A stretch of DNA of 64,000 nucleotides, taken from assembly GCF_004341685.1 (NCBI RefSeq), contig NZ_SMAA01000004.1:1-64000 (forward strand), in the 5' to 3' direction. The DNA comes from Pectinatus cerevisiiphilus (lineage in GTDB: Bacteria > Bacillota > Negativicutes > Selenomonadales > Selenomonadaceae). Of this stretch, positions 14,518-44,040 are shown in pieces (within the stretch, counting starts at the first letter, position 1; each line of letters opens with the position of its first letter). The translations under genes and the position numbers were made by a program. Below the pieces are notes generated by a model. The model saw only the letters and a program-made list of their open reading frames with translations. It had not been told where the DNA came from and did not search any database.

Positions 14518-14895
14518 TTATGCCTCCTCACAATATGATACCGCAGATTTTTCCGTTTCCCATACTTTCACGAACTTTACATGGCATTTCCCTTTTATGT
14601 TCTCATGCTGACTCAATTTATGATATAAATATGCAGCAATATTCTCTGCTGATGGATTTGCAGTTGAAAACGGTTCAAGTTCATTTAAATAATGATGATC
14701 CAGTTCACCGATAATTTCTTTCAGTGCCCCTTTTAATTTCTTAAAATCAATAAGCATACCCAATTCATTCAGTTTGCTGCCACATACCACGGCCTCAACT
14801 ACCCAATTATGCCCGTGTAAATTATTACATTTACCAGGATAACCAATGATACGGTGGGCTGCGCCAAAATCATCTCTAACTGACAACTCAAACAT
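14518..14895 (-). CDS. queD: 6-carboxytetrahydropterin synthase
   Basis: The 125-residue protein has the QueD/PTPS zinc histidines His14, His27 and His29 (AAHRI, NLHGHNW), the conserved Cys23 and the ELDHHYLNEL segment. It makes 6-carboxytetrahydropterin from dihydroneopterin triphosphate, one step before QueE. GAGGAGG precedes ATG 14895, and a good promoter lies 30-60 bases upstream, making this the first gene of the operon. tgt, which inserts the deazaguanine base into tRNA, is elsewhere in the window (23183-24298). Confidence 0.94.
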   Translation of the reverse strand: MFELSVRDDFGAAHRIIGYPGKCNNLHGHNWVVEAVVCGSKLNELGMLIDFKKLKGALKEIIGELDHHYLNELEPFSTANPSAENIAAYLYHKLSQHENIKGKCHVKFVKVWETEKSAVSYCEEA

Positions 14896-36059: not shown

Positions 36060-36458
36060 TTATTTTTTACTGTTTGTCTTTTTCATAAATTTTTCTTCAT
36101 TCACTGCAAATCTTTCATGGGTTCCTCTGCCGATTTCACCACTTTGATCAAAAGCCGTCACTTCATAGGAAATTTTCCGTCCGTCTACAGCGGTAATTTT
36201 TGCTTCGGCGCGCACTTTCATCCCCACGGGAGAAGCACTCGTATGCGCAACTGACATTGCTATGCCGACTGAAGTCCAACCTTCCGGTAAATATTCCTGA
36301 ACAAGTTCTGCTGCTGCCTGTTCCATCAATGCCATCATTGCCGGTGTTGCATAAACGGGTAATGTGCCGCTTTTCATCGCTATCGCCGTATTCTTCTCAG
36401 TGACACTGCCACTTATTTCTTTTTTTAATCCTGTTTTTACTTTTTCAGTAATTTCCAT
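36060..36458 (-). CDS. Thioesterase, fluoroacetyl-CoA thioesterase-like hotdog protein
   Basis: The 132-residue protein is a single hotdog domain of the FlK-like group: PVYATPAMMALMEQAA, SVGIAMSVAHTSASPVG and GTHERFAVNEEKF, with Thr, Glu and His in the family positions. Most members outside fluoroacetate producers have unknown acyl-CoA substrates. It is divergent from the TetR gene and probably monocistronic. Confidence 0.85.
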   Translation of the reverse strand: MEITEKVKTGLKKEISGSVTEKNTAIAMKSGTLPVYATPAMMALMEQAAAELVQEYLPEGWTSVGIAMSVAHTSASPVGMKVRAEAKITAVDGRKISYEVTAFDQSGEIGRGTHERFAVNEEKFMKKTNSKK

Positions 36459-36594
36459 GACTTAAACACCTTTCTTTATTTTACCTGCACATTAATTTTG
36501 AACCAATATTAAAATTAAACCTATAAATAAAGATAGCAATGTACTGCCTAAAAATCAATCTCTAAATATATATTAAGTTATAAAAAATATCCGC

Positions 36595-36623
36595 TTGACA
36601 AATAAAATACAGCTCCATATAAT
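36595..36623 (+). promoter_or_regulatory. Consensus promoter of the TetR gene
   Basis: TTGACA (36595-36600) and TATAAT (36618-36623) match consensus exactly with a 17-base spacer. Initiation would fall inside the adjacent operator. Confidence 0.88.
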
Positions 36624-36637
36624 TGAACAGTATTCAA
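36623..36637 (+). promoter_or_regulatory. TetR-type operator 1 (autoregulation)
   Basis: TTGAACAGTATTCAA is an inverted repeat touching the -10 box. The sequence that follows (ATGTAT) and both half sites match operator 2 before the efflux genes, so the TetR protein very likely binds both. Confidence 0.75.
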
Positions 36638-36650
36638 ATGTATAAAAGGA

Positions 36651-37283
36651 GTGGGCAATATAGCTAGAACAAAAGATCCACAAGCTCGCATGAACGAAAT
36701 CCTTGAGGCCGCAGAGCAGCTTTTTGCTGTGCAGGGCTATTATTCCACGACGATCCGTGATATTTCCCAGAAGATAGGCGTCGCCCAGGGAATGCTCTAC
36801 TATTATTTCAAATCAAAAGAAGATGTACTGGAAACACTTCTGGATAAACATGTCAACGTCTTATTATTTGAAGCTTCAACCATTCAGACTACGGTACAAG
36901 CCCCTTCCGAAAAAATAGCTTCTCTGCTTTCAATGGTTCTCCAAAAAGCTATGTATAAAAACGGCCTGCTTTTAAACATGATCTATGACGTCCAGAATCT
37001 TCAAGTGAAACAAAAGCTTTTTTTGCGCATAGAAGAAGGCCTTTCACCAAAGCTTACCGCCATTATTGAAGATGGTATAAAACAAAAACAATTTTCTGTT
37101 TCGTATATACCGACAGCAATTGATTATATTCTTACGATTCTTGAATTTCTATCGCTGGCATTATACCAAAGGACTTCACCGCGTATATTAACATCACGTA
37201 TCAGGATGGCTGAAAAACTCATAGAAAGCACTCTATCCAGCAAAGACAAAAGCATCCATATCTATACCAACGCCAACCGCTAA
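36651..37283 (+). CDS. TetR/AcrR-family repressor of the efflux operon
   Basis: The ~207-210-residue protein has a TetR helix-turn-helix (ILEAAEQLFAVQGYYSTTIRDI, SQKIGVAQGMLYYYFKSKEDVL). The start is uncertain: GTG 36651 directly abuts its AAAGGA, whereas ATA 36660 is 8 bases after GGAG and would give (M)ARTKDPQARM, the common beginning of such proteins. Coordinates follow GTG. It precedes an RND pump, and the two palindromes suggest autoregulation and pump repression. Confidence 0.9.
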   Translation: MGNIARTKDPQARMNEILEAAEQLFAVQGYYSTTIRDISQKIGVAQGMLYYYFKSKEDVLETLLDKHVNVLLFEASTIQTTVQAPSEKIASLLSMVLQKAMYKNGLLLNMIYDVQNLQVKQKLFLRIEEGLSPKLTAIIEDGIKQKQFSVSYIPTAIDYILTILEFLSLALYQRTSPRILTSRIRMAEKLIESTLSSKDKSIHIYTNANR

Positions 37284-37306
37284 AAACCGCATTTATGCGG
37301 TTTTTT
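37283..37306 (+). terminator. Terminator after TetR gene
   Basis: AAACCGCA and TGCGGTTT pair around TTTA and are followed by TTTTTT, so pump transcription may need its own start or readthrough. Confidence 0.8.
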
Positions 37307-37317
37307 ATAAGTTTTAT

Positions 37318-37332
37318 TTGAACGTTGTTCAA
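37318..37332 (+). promoter_or_regulatory. TetR-type operator 2 before efflux genes
   Basis: TTGAACGTTGTTCAA is a perfect 6-3-6 palindrome 22 bases before the adaptor start and shares half sites and flanks with operator 1. No clear promoter boxes are visible around it. Confidence 0.78.
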
Positions 37333-37354: not shown

Positions 37355-38485
37355 ATGCTGAAAAACTATCTCTTCAAGCATAAGAAATCTTTTATTTTAT
37401 TCATAATTATTCTAATATCCGGTAGTCTGCTATTAGGTTTAAGTAAGTATTATTTAAGGAATCAAAACGATGACAAAACTTCTGCTGTCCCCACAAAAAT
37501 AAACACCTTCACAATAAAAACAAATCCGGACGGCAATACAATTACTTATTCTGGTGAAGTGCGCAGCCGCTATGAAAGTGACTTATCTTTTCAGACTGGT
37601 GGGAAAATCATTGCCCGTAATGTCCAATCCGGCAGTGTCGTCCATAAAGGTGATGTATTATTCAGCATTGATACACGCGATTTGCAGCAAAGTGTAAAAA
37701 ACGCGCTGGCCCAAGAAACATCCGCCCATGCCCAATTAGAATTAGCCGCCAAAAATAAACAGCGCTATGACCAGCTTTTCCAAGAAGGCGCCGTCAGCAA
37801 AGCTGAATACGATCAATATGACGAACAATACACAAATGCTGTAGCAGCAGTCAAGCAAGCCGAAGCACAGACCGCGCAAAACAGCAATCAATTAGCTTAC
37901 AGTGATCTGACAGCCCCGTACGACGGTGTCATCACTGCCATCAAAACTGAAGCGGGACAAGTAGTGTCAGCGGGTCAGCCAATTGCGACAATAGCCCAAC
38001 CGGACAACCTCGAAATAGAATTCAATGTGCCTGAAGATAAGATTGCTTACTTATCTGTAGGCGAAAATGCCTCAGTCACTTTCTGGGCTTTACCTGCCTT
38101 AAAGCTCAATGCTTCGATCCGGGAAATCACGCCTTTTGCCGATAATAACACACGTACCTTTAAAATCCGAGCTTCACTCCTGCAACCACCCCCAACAATC
38201 AAATTGGGCATGACTGCCTCCTTATCCCTAGCCCAGCCTATAGACCAAAACGCTATCAGCATTCCGCTGACAGCAGTCTACCAATCCGAAAATAAAGGCA
38301 GCGGTGTATGGTTAATACGCGACCATAAGCTCTCATTCCAGCCGGTAACTTTAGGAAAACCCGCTGATGACAATAAAACTGTATATATTTTAAGCGGCTT
38401 AGCACCAGGTGATTGCATTGCAGCAGCCGGTGTAAATAAACTTTATGAAGGTGAATCCATCGCAGAAGGAGATGAAGTTTCGTGA
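37355..38485 (+). CDS. RND efflux periplasmic adaptor (membrane fusion protein)
   Basis: The 376-residue protein has an N-terminal membrane anchor (FILFIIILISGSLLLGL), a lipoyl half (GGKIIARNVQSGSVVHKGDVL), a coiled-coil hairpin (about 115-170), the second lipoyl half (YDGVITAIKTEAGQVVSAGQ) and beta-barrel and membrane-proximal domains. It links the RND pump to an outer-membrane exit. GGAGGTG precedes ATG 37355. It overlaps the pump gene by 4 bases. Confidence 0.93.
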   Translation: MLKNYLFKHKKSFILFIIILISGSLLLGLSKYYLRNQNDDKTSAVPTKINTFTIKTNPDGNTITYSGEVRSRYESDLSFQTGGKIIARNVQSGSVVHKGDVLFSIDTRDLQQSVKNALAQETSAHAQLELAAKNKQRYDQLFQEGAVSKAEYDQYDEQYTNAVAAVKQAEAQTAQNSNQLAYSDLTAPYDGVITAIKTEAGQVVSAGQPIATIAQPDNLEIEFNVPEDKIAYLSVGENASVTFWALPALKLNASIREITPFADNNTRTFKIRASLLQPPPTIKLGMTASLSLAQPIDQNAISIPLTAVYQSENKGSGVWLIRDHKLSFQPVTLGKPADDNKTVYILSGLAPGDCIAAAGVNKLYEGESIAEGDEVS

Positions 38486-41400
38486 AAAAGTTCAACATGT
38501 CTGAATGGGTATTACACCATCGGCAGTTCACATATTTCTTTATCTTCCTTTTGACCATTGCCGGTTGTTTTTCCTATTATAATTTGGGACGTATGGAAGA
38601 CCCTGATTATACAATAAAAGAAATGGTTATCGTGACGCAATGGCCTGGTGCTACCGCTAAACAAGCAGAGGAACAAGTCACAGACAAAATAGAAAAAAAA
38701 TTACAGGACCTCTCTGGATTAAAAGACCTGCAAAGCTATTCACTTCCAGGACAAAGCATCATTTATGTCGAACTTAAAGATACTATCGACAAAAAAGATA
38801 TTCCGTCTAAATGGCTTGAAGTACGTAATTTTGTCGGAGATATCCAAGGCAGCCTGCCAACGGGCACCTCTCCGCCGCAATTCAACGACCATTTTGACGA
38901 TGTCTATGGCACTATATACGCACTTACTGGTGATGGTTATACTTATGAGCAACTGCGGCAGCAAGCTGAGCAAATACGCCAAACACTGCTTGGTGTCCCA
39001 CATGCAAAAAAGGTGGAATTAATCGGTGTCCAAACCGAAAGCATCTATTTGGAAATACAAAATGAAAAACTTGCCCAGTTAGGTATTACGCCAACCGACA
39101 TAAACACCGCCATCCAAGCTGAAAACAGCACACTTCCCGCCGGTATGCTGGAAACAAACGATGCCAATCTTTATTTGCGGGTAGACGGTTTATTTCATAA
39201 TTTAGAAGACATAAATAAGCTCCCTATCAAGGGCAGCAACCAAAATATGATCCGCCTTGGTGATATCGCCAAAGTCAGACGGGATTATATAGAACCCAGC
39301 GACCCCAAATTTTTTTATCAGGGTAAACCAGCTGTCGGTATCGCTGTTTCGATGGAGCCAGGCGCAAATATAATTGAATTTGGCAAGGATGTCCATAACT
39401 CTATAACCAGTATACAAAAACAACTCAGTGCCGGCTTAGAACTACAACAAACGGTTAATCAGGCAGAAACTGTCAATAACTCCATCCATGAATTTATTGA
39501 ATCTCTAATCGAAGCCGTCTTTATTATTTTCCTTGTGAGTTTTGTAAGTCTCGGTATTCGTTCGGGCACAGTTGTTGCTCTTTGCATACCATTTGTATTA
39601 GCAGTCGTGTTTACTATTATGTATATAACCCATATTGATTTACAGCGCATATCATTAGGTGCGCTTATCATCGCTTTAGGTCTCTTAGTCGACGATGCCA
39701 TGATAGTTACAGAAATGATGATCGTAAAGCTGGAGGAAGGCTGGTCTCGGGCAGAAGCCGCCACAGCCGCCTATACCCTAACTGCCAAACCGATGCTCAC
39801 AGGTACACTTATCACCTGTGCCGGATTCATCCCTGTCAGTCTAGCCAAAGGAAGTGCCTCAGAGTTTTGCGCCTCTATTTTTTATGTAATTTCCATCGCC
39901 CTTATAACTTCCTGGATTGTCGCTGGCAGTGTTACCCCGCTCACCGGCTACAATCTCATAGCTGCTCCTAAGAAAATTGCGAAAACCAACCTGCACACCA
40001 ACAAGATATATAAAATTTTCATAAAGGCATTGACCTGGTGCCTAAATTACCGTAAACGTGTGCTCTGCATAACCGGTGTATTATTTATAATGGCATTATT
40101 AATTCTTGCTTATATTCCCGAAGAATTTTTCCCTGCCTCGACACGCCCCGAGTTAATTGTGCGCCTCGAACTACCAGCAGGTGCTTCTCTAAAAGACACT
40201 GAAACGACTGCTGCCGATTTTGCCAAATATCTGGAAAAAAATAATAATATCTCATATTTTACCTATCATACGGGTGAAAGTGCCCCCCGTTTTGTGCTCA
40301 CCTTCGATCCTGCGCTCAGTAAACCAAACCTGGCCGAATTTGTTATTGTTGCCAAAAATGTAGAAGCGCGCCAGCAGTTACAAGACGAGCTGCCTTCACT
40401 TATCACTGCTAATTTTCCCAATGTAAAAGTCCACACCAAAGTCATTGTGACCGGTTCTTCTGCCGATTATCCCGTAATGCTGCGCGTCGTTGGCAATGAC
40501 GAAAAAAAGGTGCAGGAAATCGCCCAGCAAGTAGCGACAAAAATGCGTGCTGAAAAATCATTGCGCAATATAAACCTTAACTGGAGTGAAAAGAATACAT
40601 CTATTAAGCTTAGCATTGACCGGGATAAAGCCACAGCCCTTGGACTGACGACAAGTTCTTTAAGCAACGCCCTACAAGCAGCATTGTCGGGAACCACGCT
40701 TTCTGAATACCAGGAAAAGGACAGAACGGTACCTATTATTTTTAAACTAAATACCACTTCTACTGATTCTGTAAACAAAATTGCCAGCATTGCTGTTCCT
40801 CTGCCTGACGGAAAGACAATCCCCTTGGAGCAAATTGCCCGCATCAGCCTTTCCAACGAAAATGGAATAATCTACAGAAGGAATAATCGTCCTGCTGTGT
40901 TAATTTCTGCGGAAACTGTCAGTGATGCCAATGGCGATGACCTTACGCGAAAGACTTACAATAGCCTGCAAGAGCTTCGCCATTCGCTGCCACCCGGATA
41001 TGCTATTGAATACGACGGTGCCACCGAAGAAAGCATTACTGATTCCGCACTGTTTTTGGAACCTGTCCCGTTAATGATAATAGCTACACTTGTCCTTTTA
41101 ATGATGCAGTTGCAGAGTATACCCAAAATGCTCATTACCCTGTTGACCGCACCGATGGGCATTATAGGTGTCTCCTTCGGGCTTTTACTAACAGGAAAAC
41201 CTTGGGGGTTCGTAGTGCAAATGGGTGTTTTGGCATTGTTTGGTATAATAATTCGCAATTCCGTCATTTTAATGGACCAAATAGATATATTCCAAAAGGA
41301 AGGCCAGCCTCTTCGGGAGGCTATCATAAACGCCGCGGTCAACCGGCTTCGCCCTATTTTACTGACTGCTGCTGCCGCTATTTTAGCAATGCTGCCTTTA

Positions 41401-41532
41401 ATGAATAACATTTTCTGGGGGCCAATGGCCGTTGCGATGGGGGCAGGCTTGTTCAGTGCGACAATCCTTACCCTGCTCATTCTGCCGGTTATGTATGCTT
41501 GTTTATATAAAGCTGTACCTAAAAAACAGTAA
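38482..41532 (+). CDS. RND-family efflux transporter permease
   Basis: The 1016-residue protein is a typical HAE1-like RND pump: membrane segment 1, PDYTIKEMVIVTQWPGA, large periplasmic loops, and the proton relay ALGLLVDDAMIVTEMM in segment 4, repeated architecture and the C-terminal MQLQSIPKM and GIIIRNSVILMDQI segments. The start is GTG 38482. Substrate cannot be read from sequence; the TetR control suggests toxic compounds. Confidence 0.94.
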   Translation: MKKFNMSEWVLHHRQFTYFFIFLLTIAGCFSYYNLGRMEDPDYTIKEMVIVTQWPGATAKQAEEQVTDKIEKKLQDLSGLKDLQSYSLPGQSIIYVELKDTIDKKDIPSKWLEVRNFVGDIQGSLPTGTSPPQFNDHFDDVYGTIYALTGDGYTYEQLRQQAEQIRQTLLGVPHAKKVELIGVQTESIYLEIQNEKLAQLGITPTDINTAIQAENSTLPAGMLETNDANLYLRVDGLFHNLEDINKLPIKGSNQNMIRLGDIAKVRRDYIEPSDPKFFYQGKPAVGIAVSMEPGANIIEFGKDVHNSITSIQKQLSAGLELQQTVNQAETVNNSIHEFIESLIEAVFIIFLVSFVSLGIRSGTVVALCIPFVLAVVFTIMYITHIDLQRISLGALIIALGLLVDDAMIVTEMMIVKLEEGWSRAEAATAAYTLTAKPMLTGTLITCAGFIPVSLAKGSASEFCASIFYVISIALITSWIVAGSVTPLTGYNLIAAPKKIAKTNLHTNKIYKIFIKALTWCLNYRKRVLCITGVLFIMALLILAYIPEEFFPASTRPELIVRLELPAGASLKDTETTAADFAKYLEKNNNISYFTYHTGESAPRFVLTFDPALSKPNLAEFVIVAKNVEARQQLQDELPSLITANFPNVKVHTKVIVTGSSADYPVMLRVVGNDEKKVQEIAQQVATKMRAEKSLRNINLNWSEKNTSIKLSIDRDKATALGLTTSSLSNALQAALSGTTLSEYQEKDRTVPIIFKLNTTSTDSVNKIASIAVPLPDGKTIPLEQIARISLSNENGIIYRRNNRPAVLISAETVSDANGDDLTRKTYNSLQELRHSLPPGYAIEYDGATEESITDSALFLEPVPLMIIATLVLLMMQLQSIPKMLITLLTAPMGIIGVSFGLLLTGKPWGFVVQMGVLALFGIIIRNSVILMDQIDIFQKEGQPLREAIINAAVNRLRPILLTAAAAILAMLPLMNNIFWGPMAVAMGAGLFSATILTLLILPVMYACLYKAVPKKQ

Positions 41533-41559: not shown

Positions 41560-42669
41560 ATGCTCAACTACCGTTATCTCATTATCTTATTGGGACTTTG
41601 TCTTATAGAAAATGTTCCTGCACACGCCCAAACCGCAACCAATGCGGCACCACCAGCACAACCAACAGCAAAACAGCTACCTGCTATTCCAGTAAACAGT
41701 GAATCATTTTTTACTGAAAATACACCCACAGATGTTGCTCCAGCCTTTGGTACTGATTTATACAGTTTAGCTAAAACTGTTGATGCCTTCCATCCCTCCA
41801 AAAAAAATGTACTACAAGCCCATTTTGGAAATGATTTCAATTATAAAAATGAACACAGTACGCAAATAGGGCTGGCTTCGCTGCAACATCTGACTAAAAA
41901 CCTCTACAGCACCTCCGCATTGACTAACCGCCACCTCAGTGATGAAACGTATAAAACATATTATAACCTGCAAACAAGTGGTCTTTTATATAAATTTGAC
42001 AAAGGTATAATCGGCTTATCTTACGACCACTATACAGGTGATATTGATATGAATGGCTTTACAATAAACAGCTCATATCAATTTGACAGCAGTACAGAAT
42101 TACTATTTTTTTCAGGGAAACGGCCGCATAACGCGCCCGGTGCCATATTGCAAAATGTATATGAACACTTTTATGCATTAGGCTTACAAAAAAATATAAA
42201 TGACCGTTTAACTTTAGATCTTGGGTACGATATCAGTAACCTTTCCGATGGTAACCAATATAAAAACTATTCTTTTAATGGTATATATAAGCTTGAACAC
42301 ACAAACGCATACGCAGATTCCCTGCTTTTTGATTATAGCCATGGCAGCTATGACAAATTTTCCCCTGCATATGATACACCAAGTAAAAATGACTATTACG
42401 CTTTAGGATTACGCCGTGACTGGCCTGTATACTCACAAAAACGGATTTGGTCGTGGACTACTAAACTCGGTACAGTACGCGATAATAATGAACCTTTTTC
42501 TTTCCTTCCCTCCACAGAAATAAAGCTTACCCAGAATATAAGCAAAAACCAACAACTTACCGCTGCTTTTTCCTATGCTTGGTACCAAAAAAGAACTGAT
42601 GCAGAAGTAAATAATAACCGCAAAGCAAACAATTATTCATTTGCCCTCGATTACTCCATCACTTTATAA
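41560..42669 (+). CDS. Probable outer-membrane beta-barrel protein of the efflux operon
   Basis: The 369-residue protein has a signal peptide (LIILLGLCLIENVPAHA), a Pro/Ala-rich linker and then repeated alternating polar/aromatic strands such as KGIIGLSYDHYTGDIDM, ending SFALDYSITL. This is the look of a monomeric barrel and not of the helical-tunnel TolC family. It starts 27 bases after the pump. It might be a porin-like exit or a separate outer-membrane protein; no family was recognised. Confidence 0.75.
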   Translation: MLNYRYLIILLGLCLIENVPAHAQTATNAAPPAQPTAKQLPAIPVNSESFFTENTPTDVAPAFGTDLYSLAKTVDAFHPSKKNVLQAHFGNDFNYKNEHSTQIGLASLQHLTKNLYSTSALTNRHLSDETYKTYYNLQTSGLLYKFDKGIIGLSYDHYTGDIDMNGFTINSSYQFDSSTELLFFSGKRPHNAPGAILQNVYEHFYALGLQKNINDRLTLDLGYDISNLSDGNQYKNYSFNGIYKLEHTNAYADSLLFDYSHGSYDKFSPAYDTPSKNDYYALGLRRDWPVYSQKRIWSWTTKLGTVRDNNEPFSFLPSTEIKLTQNISKNQQLTAAFSYAWYQKRTDAEVNNNRKANNYSFALDYSITL

Positions 42670-42747
42670 TCTGCCTTTTTCGCTGGAGCATTATGCCAAG
42701 TTATAAAAATTTGCATTATTTTCTATGAACTATATTAAAAAAACTGA

Positions 42748-42951: not shown

Positions 42952-44040
42952 ATGGCAAAAATTATTTTAACTGGCGACCGCCCTACCGGTAGATTACATA
43001 TAGGGCATTATGTAGGTTCTTTGCGGGAACGTGTGCAATTACAAAACTCAGGTGTATATGACAAAGTTTTCATCATGATTGCCGATGCCCAAGCACTTAC
43101 CGATAATGCCGATAATCCAGAAAAGATACGGCAGAATATTATTGAAGTAGCACTTGATTATCTAGCATGCGGACTTGATCCTAAAAAGTCTGTTATCTTT
43201 ATCCAATCGCAAATTCCCCAACTATGCGAACTGTCCTTTTACTATATGAATTTAGTCACAGTTTCTCGCCTGCAAAGGAATCCTACCGTAAAAGCCGAAA
43301 TTCAGGCAAGGAATTTTGAAACAAGCATCCCTGTCGGCTTTTTTACTTATCCTATCAGCCAAGCTGCCGATATAACTGCTTTTCAGGCAACAACCGTTCC
43401 CGTGGGTGAAGACCAAATGCCTATGCTTGAACAGACAAGGGAAATTGTACGCAAGTTCAACACCACCTACGGTGAAACCCTTACAGAACCGGAAATTCTA
43501 CTTTCCGGCAATGAAACCTGCCAACGGCTGCCCGGCACAGACGGCAAAGCCAAAATGAGTAAATCCATAGGCAATTGCATTTATTTGTCAGAAACTGCCG
43601 ATGAAATAAAAAAGAAAGTAATGAATATGTATACGGACCCAGACCATATTCGTGTAGCTGACCCTGGAAAAATAGAAGGTAATACCGTCTTCACTTATCT
43701 CGATGCCTTTTGCACCGATGACCACTTTAAGCGTTATCTGCCGGACTATAATAATCTCGACGAATTAAAGGCACATTATCAGCGAGGCGGCCTCGGTGAT
43801 GTTAAGGTAAAAAAATTCTTATATGCCATCCTAATGGAATATCTGGAACCAATAAAAAAACGCCGCACTGAATTTGAAAAAGACATTCCGGCAGTATATA
43901 AAATGCTACAGGAAGGCAGTGTCAAAGCCGAAGCCGTCGCCGCCGAAACTTTGGCCGCTGTAAAAAAAGCTATGCGGATAAATTATTTTGACGACACTGA
44001 ACTAATCAAAGGACAAATTAAGCGTTTCCAAAAAAAATAA
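42952..44040 (+). CDS. trpS: Tryptophanyl-tRNA synthetase
   Basis: The 362-residue class I enzyme has [11 protein letters not shown] (HIGH motif), the Trp-binding [19 protein letters not shown] region (as in QAADITAF and VPVGEDQ) and [10 protein letters not shown] (KMSKS motif). It charges tRNA-Trp. An AGGAG site precedes ATG 42952. It is monocistronic and ends at a terminator (44070-44113). Confidence 0.96.

Follow-up and report, generated by a model that had tools for sequence, protein, structure and literature searches.

What does an RND efflux gene set do with an outer-membrane beta-barrel in the place where a TolC would be expected? The question is raised by a stretch of 64,000 nucleotides from Pectinatus cerevisiiphilus (contig NZ_SMAA01000004.1, positions 1 to 64,000; hereafter the window), in which a TetR-family regulator, a periplasmic adaptor and an RND permease are followed by one further gene. 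The original prediction, made from the sequence alone, was that this last gene encodes a secreted, barrel-like protein, and it left two outcomes to choose between: either the pump borrows a TolC encoded elsewhere, or the barrel has a new role in the envelope.

The last gene of the efflux set

The gene is a complete open reading frame of 369 amino acids (41560-42669, plus strand), which begins 27 bp beyond the stop codon of the RND gene and has a ribosome-binding-like stretch, GGGAG, ahead of its start. The protein begins, as had been proposed, with a signal peptide (residues 1-23, approximately; 41560..41628, plus strand), whose AHA/Q cleavage site was read by eye. An Ala/Pro-rich linker follows (residues 24-79; 41629..41796, plus strand), in the place that the TPR domain occupies in PgaA, and the remainder is a barrel domain of about 290 residues (residues 80-369; 41797..42666, plus strand), delimited by alignment, a Pfam search with the barrel part, AlphaFold, VIA-align and Foldseek. 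The prediction had also spoken of aromatic-alternating strands. The protein is indeed rich in aromatic residues (15.5%, compared with 6.7% in the TolC and 8.8% in the TrpS of the same genome), and two-residue alternation across residues 80-369 lies 2.2 standard scores above shuffles, close to the value of the E. coli PgaA barrel (z = 2.1) and far from those of TrpS (-0.5) and TetR (-0.4). This part of the prediction stands with a reservation, however, since the genome's own TolC (1.6) and the adaptor (1.9) score close behind, so that alternation alone is weak evidence for a barrel.

The sequence points to one family. The sole Pfam match up to E 1 was PgaA_barrel, which stayed under its cut-off with the whole protein (E 7.7e-4) and also with the barrel part alone (E 3.4e-4). 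The NCBIfam equivalog model for PgaA, TIGR03939, was not reached (12.8 bits, cut-off 366.65); an operon-borne PgaA, that of locus L118, likewise scores under this cut-off, at 74.8 bits. With hhalign, the barrel gave a collinear alignment with PgaA of E. coli at E 3.2e-5 and a probability of 72.6%, compared with a probability of 0.3% for the genome's own TolC. The best match was the PgaA of a Selenomonas MAG from the same family, with 30% identity across the barrel; the pga neighbours there include PgaB and PgaC above the NCBIfam cut-offs and a PgaD just under its own (29.1 vs 31.45 bits). A tree of 17 barrels placed that of the window with 12 Selenomonadaceae rows, against 4 rows from other families, with support 100/100. 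Its placement within the 12 was not settled by the tree, in which no other terminal branch matches its own in length (1.33 changes per site, median 0.49) and its residue make-up is flagged by the tree program as unlike that of the other rows. Whole-genome searches with the protein, one genome being sampled per species, detected kin at E 1e-3 in 13 of the 189 genomes of the family and at E 1e-5 in 29 of the 380 genomes of the class, counting the genome of the window itself. No plasmid copies were found at E 1e-5, no useful remote relatives in the PDB by sequence, and no second PgaA barrel in the same genome by protein, Pfam-model or profile search.

AlphaFold, run on residues 80-369 with a two-row alignment, returned, at moderate confidence (mean pLDDT 62.6, pTM 0.57), a beta-barrel with 14 assigned strands, in which pLDDT falls below 50 over the first 55 residues and at positions 266-280 and 288-290. 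The only helix of four or more residues (4-10) lies within such a low-confidence stretch. A run on the mature protein (pLDDT 42) was set aside, together with its fold list. Foldseek ranked first the solved structure of E. coli PgaA, 4Y25 (E 2e-10, TM 0.68, rmsd 7.3), and VIA-align superposed the model on the same structure (Z 18.3, 3.5 Å across 243 residues), listing also the exporters PelB (Z 17.4) and BcsC (Z 15.2). The porins CymA (Z 22.3) and OmpG (Z 21.1) score above 4Y25 in VIA-align, and the fold list by itself would read as a monomeric porin; it is the sequence evidence that leads to PgaA. The two porins resemble the model as monomeric barrels, with no sequence match seen, and we take this as a shared general fold, not kinship. 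The absence of a family from these lists was not counted as its exclusion. PMC9384988 gives 16 strands for the PgaA barrel, and the first 55, low-confidence residues of our model could house the two strands by which it falls short of that number.

A TolC fold was considered for the protein and rejected: it was obtained from none of Pfam (where the OEP domain, PF02321, gave no match), hhalign and the AlphaFold model. The proposal that the efflux operon ends in a barrel-like protein devoid of TolC-like helices was thereby borne out, the model showing no periplasmic helices. As judged from sequence and predicted fold, the barrel is homologous to the PgaA export pore, and we consider the identification of the protein as a PgaA barrel close to certain.

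The likeness to PgaA thus resides in a homologous C-terminal barrel, which has E. coli PgaA as its first structural match and groups with Selenomonadaceae PgaA barrels; the differences lie both around that barrel and within it. The N-terminal periplasmic TPR domain is absent: 56 residues (24-79) precede the barrel, with no TPR match in Pfam, compared with about 340-500 residues ahead of the matched barrel in full-length PgaA relatives. The TPR part of E. coli PgaA binds PgaB and the polymer, according to PMC9384988. Nor is there a PgaB, PgaC, PgaD operon around the gene, which sits in an efflux gene set with TetR, adaptor, RND and trpS as its neighbours. Within the barrel, many residues conserved in PgaA have changed. 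The window barrel keeps 39 of 70 conserved columns (0.56; leave-one-out values for the other 12 rows, 0.68-0.92) or, at a stricter conservation threshold, 24 of 37 (0.65, vs 0.80-1.00), a loss that is in part plain divergence because its mean identity is also the lowest. The C-terminal residue is Leu, not the Trp found in all 12 others. Together with the 39/70 columns, this suggests that the barrel may be losing function. All 13 columns that are invariant across the 13-row alignment are present, and we read the pattern as that of a barrel retained for the sake of its fold, with changes in PgaA-specific residues, decay being another possible reading. Net charge, tried as a sign of altered cargo (0 in the window barrel, -17 in its nearest relative), was discarded as uninformative because the 12 relatives range from -18 to +12.

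The pump, its control and its outer-membrane channel

The remainder of the set is the efflux pump with its regulator. The TetR-family regulator (36651..37283, plus strand; Pfam PF00440, E 5e-17) is followed by the adaptor (37355..38485, plus strand; RND_mfp, NCBIfam TIGR01730, E 1.5e-78, above cut-off) and the RND permease (38482..41532, plus strand; ACR_tran, Pfam PF00873, E 5e-170), the last two genes overlapping by 4 bp. Downstream of the barrel lies trpS (42952..44040, plus strand), named by eye from its sequence. As in a tripartite RND operon, TetR, an RLS-bearing adaptor and an RND permease form one set; what differs is the last gene, here a PgaA-type barrel and not an OEP/TolC gene, and neither Pfam nor the AlphaFold model revealed an outer-membrane factor encoded within the pump operon.

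The unit starts at an exact consensus sigma-70 promoter (TTGACA-17-TATAAT, 12/12; 36595..36623, plus strand), unique in the 64-kb window. Promoter-like sites as such are no commoner in the region than in shuffles (16, shuffle mean 18.7), so that just this perfect match is noteworthy. Overlapping the promoter is a TetR-operator-like palindrome, TTGAACAGTATTCAA (36623..36637), and a second one, TTGAACGTTGTTCAA (37318..37332), lies between TetR and the adaptor; the pattern has three copies in the window, of which the third, at 14664, is unrelated to the unit. Also between TetR and the adaptor is a terminator-like hairpin with a T-run (37282..37305, plus strand), which makes two transcripts possible; seven sites of this kind were found, compared with a shuffle mean of 5.8. 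The hairpin and the second palindrome suggest that the adaptor, RND and barrel genes may own a promoter; the promoter scan found no separate one ahead of the adaptor.

Which outer-membrane channel might such a pump use? The adaptor carries, at the tip of its hairpin (residues 137-148; 37763..37798, plus strand), the RLS motif RYDQLFQEGAVS. PMC3391258 describes this motif, RxxxLxxxxxxS, as the part of AcrA and MacA that binds the tip of TolC. For comparison we read the 13 loci (L068-L080) that hold other Negativicutes adaptor-RND pairs with the closest RND genes (57-62% identity to the window RND). The RLS motif occurs at the equivalent place in 11 of the 13 adaptors, a homologous TetR adjoins nine of the pairs, and five of these nine show, ahead of TetR, a palindrome of the same type. 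In none of the 13 fetched stretches was a TolC found near the pump, by BLAST or with a profile of two TolCs from the window genome (a profile that recovered the TolC fragment on contig C33, the positive control), and in this the relatives resemble the window. None has a gene labelled as a PgaA-type barrel behind the RND gene.

TolCs are available elsewhere in the genome. One, on contig C12, lies beside MacA/MacB-like genes, and another, on C4, inside an Mla set; this set is described as conserved in Negativicutes (PMC10665443). A third TolC-type gene, on C33 (locus L081), stands behind another adaptor-RND set, whose RND is 55% identical to that of the window, and is cut by the end of the 6.8-kb contig. 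Matches to OEP at C4:37670, C33:2324 and C7:69505 were rejected as TolCs, all three lying within adaptor genes.

Taken together, the RLS motif, the lack of a TolC near the 13 related pumps and the presence of TolCs elsewhere in the genome make a borrowed TolC the simplest reading, with the barrel as an extra component, and we think it likely, from these sequence features, that the pump does borrow a TolC encoded elsewhere. The alternatives that the original prediction had set against each other would then both apply: the evidence favours TolC borrowing and a role for the barrel together, the former on the three observations just given, the latter as a plausible proposal. The interpretation towards which we lean is that the pump borrows a TolC and that the orphan PgaA-type barrel, expressed along with it, would act as an additional, co-induced pore.

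The inserted unit and other orphan barrels

In two of the four congeners analysed (G002 and G003), trpS directly adjoins a thioesterase-like gene (window positions 36060-36458); the remaining two have a different flank. In the window, TetR, adaptor, RND and barrel stand between these two genes, as an insertion of about 6.1-6.3 kb that comprises the pump and the barrel together and is absent from both congeners. BLAST homology to G002 ends at 36458 and resumes at 42721, with short similarity recognized by eye up to about 36.56 kb. Near the edges lie the two copies of a 12-bp direct repeat, AAGTTATAAAAA (left copy at the insertion edge, 36575..36586; right copy, 42698..42709), which resemble a target-site duplication or a recombination site; among 300 Markov-resampled flank pairs, 4 attained a repeat of this length. 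In congener G001, the flank of trpS (L125:7229-18142) contains genes that we presume, from their N-terminal signature, to be of nitrogenase type. The four congeners gave no barrel match at E 1e-3 and, for the adaptor, none at E 1e-85; the single RND gene in each of them is of a different kind and 50-52% identical to that of the window. GC3 is 0.316 for the barrel, 0.401 for the adaptor and 0.421 for the RND gene (window mean 0.36, sd 0.04; 6 of 47 open reading frames lie below the barrel), values that merely hint at separate origins of barrel and pump because all are near the window range.

A profile built from 13 barrels found, at E 1e-6, 36 places in 34 of the 380 class genomes, mostly in frames of 634-839 aa, with two longer (980 and 1200 aa) and four of less than 450 aa. 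The stretches around 23 of the 35 places outside the window were fetched, the remaining 12 lying in frames of at least 748 aa. PgaB and PgaC homologues accompany the barrel at 21 of these 23 (one being the source of the query), and an RND gene with an adaptor is present in the stretch at one. The four short frames are those of the window and of genomes G098, G319 and G062. In G319, the barrel (L158:8958-9986) is a second stand-alone PgaA-like protein, of 342 aa in a complete frame; no PgaB, PgaC, RND or adaptor is encoded in the preceding 9 kb, and the contig ends 200 bp past it. In G098 (L095:7614-8852), a short PgaA-like protein of 412 aa starts with a signal peptide, its barrel being preceded by some 130 residues, and the fetched 17 kb are free of PgaB, PgaC, RND and adaptor genes. 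G062, the genome with the RND gene and adaptor, shows an independent RND-pgaA neighbourhood (L085:7986-13527), in which a core-type RND gene is followed by a pgaA broken into two frames and then by pgaB.

Among the 36 barrel places in the 380 class genomes, 24 loci of which were read, a stand-alone barrel behind a pump occurs in the window genome only. The parts, pump and barrel, and the loosening of PgaA barrels from their setting are thus not unique; their joining to an efflux set is unique within the searched genomes. Judged by titles and opening abstract lines, none of the papers listed by the literature searches describes an RND operon with a barrel of the PgaA type.

Could the gene simply be a leftover, a pgaA that lost its TPR part and its operon, was stranded behind the pump by recombination and has no efflux role? 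The long branch and the lost conserved positions would fit such a history, as would the fact that a single genome pairs such a barrel with this pump. Short orphan barrels without PgaB, PgaC, RND or adaptor do exist in G098 and G319, the RND gene straight ahead of the broken pgaA in G062 implies that such junctions do occur, and the GC3 of the barrel is below that of the adaptor and RND genes, though all are near the window range. What speaks for an active barrel is the state of the gene itself: a complete frame lying 27 bp behind the RND gene and inside the inserted unit, the 13 invariant columns retained, and a trimmed gene that nonetheless has a clean start with its own signal peptide. A branch of 1.33 changes per site should, under neutral decay, have broken a frame of 369 codons, and its intactness argues for an active barrel. 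A leftover therefore appears to us possible, though on the doubtful side, and that the predicted barrel is an active, independent pore we hold to be about an even chance.

How the barrel might work

Under the reading of an additional, co-induced pore, an inducer would release TetR from the palindromes, and pump and barrel would be made together. The RND-adaptor complex would use its RLS tips to dock on a TolC from elsewhere, for which the MacAB-linked copy on C12 or the copy on C33 are candidates. The barrel would insert alone, forming a monomeric pore in the outer membrane. Because the model has no periplasmic helices on which the adaptor could dock, the barrel would probably function alongside the pump, for instance by letting out periplasmic substrate, and would not be its tunnel.

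A bolder proposal is that a PgaA-derived pore was recruited as the dedicated outer-membrane part of the RND system, with discharge through or with the barrel and no TolC helical tunnel, which we regard as unlikely. In its strict form, a tripartite RND system in which the PgaA-type pore replaces TolC as the pump's outlet, it strikes us as improbable. The barrel gene does stand where a tripartite operon has its outer-membrane gene, it lies in the same insertion as the pump, and the barrels of PgaA, PelB and BcsC are export pores (4Y25, 9H80, 6TZK). Against this, the adaptor retains the RLS motif for TolC tips, the predicted barrel offers no periplasmic docking helices, and TolCs are available in the genome. 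Moreover, a monomer of 14-16 strands mismatches the hexameric funnel of the adaptor.

The ancestry of the barrel also directs attention to polysaccharide. The PgaB model matched eight stretches of the window genome, the best at 93.3 bits against a cut-off of 321.9. Seven of them, in frames of 262-309 aa, are taken to be plain deacetylases. The eighth is a 609-aa protein on contig C23, a weak match (35 vs 321.9 bits) that is preceded by a family-2 glycosyltransferase (NodC 177/550 bits, PgaC 115/422 bits, Pfam Chitin_synth_2). No PgaD match was found up to E 1 in this genome, which is weak evidence since the true PgaD of L118 also falls under its NCBIfam cut-off. The C23 cluster (L172:1-11948), which is of polysaccharide type, holds a nucleotide-sugar dehydrogenase-like gene and deacetylase-like genes next to the NodC/PgaC/chitin-synthase-like glycosyltransferase, and by eye it also encodes secreted proteins with barrel-like C-termini (one 546 aa long, plus a tail of 117 aa at the stretch boundary).

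Such a locus leaves room for an export role, but that the window barrel still serves to export a polysaccharide whose synthase is encoded elsewhere, its position behind the pump merely supplying a promoter, seems to us very improbable: the nearest fold and sequence relatives are polysaccharide exporters, and a glycosyltransferase does precede a weakly PgaB-like protein on C23, yet the genome lacks a PgaB above cut-off and, for what that is worth, a PgaD match, the C23 cluster seems to own barrel-like secreted proteins, and the TPR domain, the binder of PgaB and polymer in E. coli as given in PMC9384988, is missing.

An additional pore beside a TolC-borrowing pump, the reading to which we return, gives the locus its interest. 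The accepted view is that RND pumps require a TolC-type tunnel, and this operon allows a test of whether other pores can serve or modulate efflux. It also indicates, together with two other genomes of the class, that PgaA-type barrels can be freed from their scaffold and their operon, and such freed barrels bear on the reuse of exporter parts in diderm Firmicutes.
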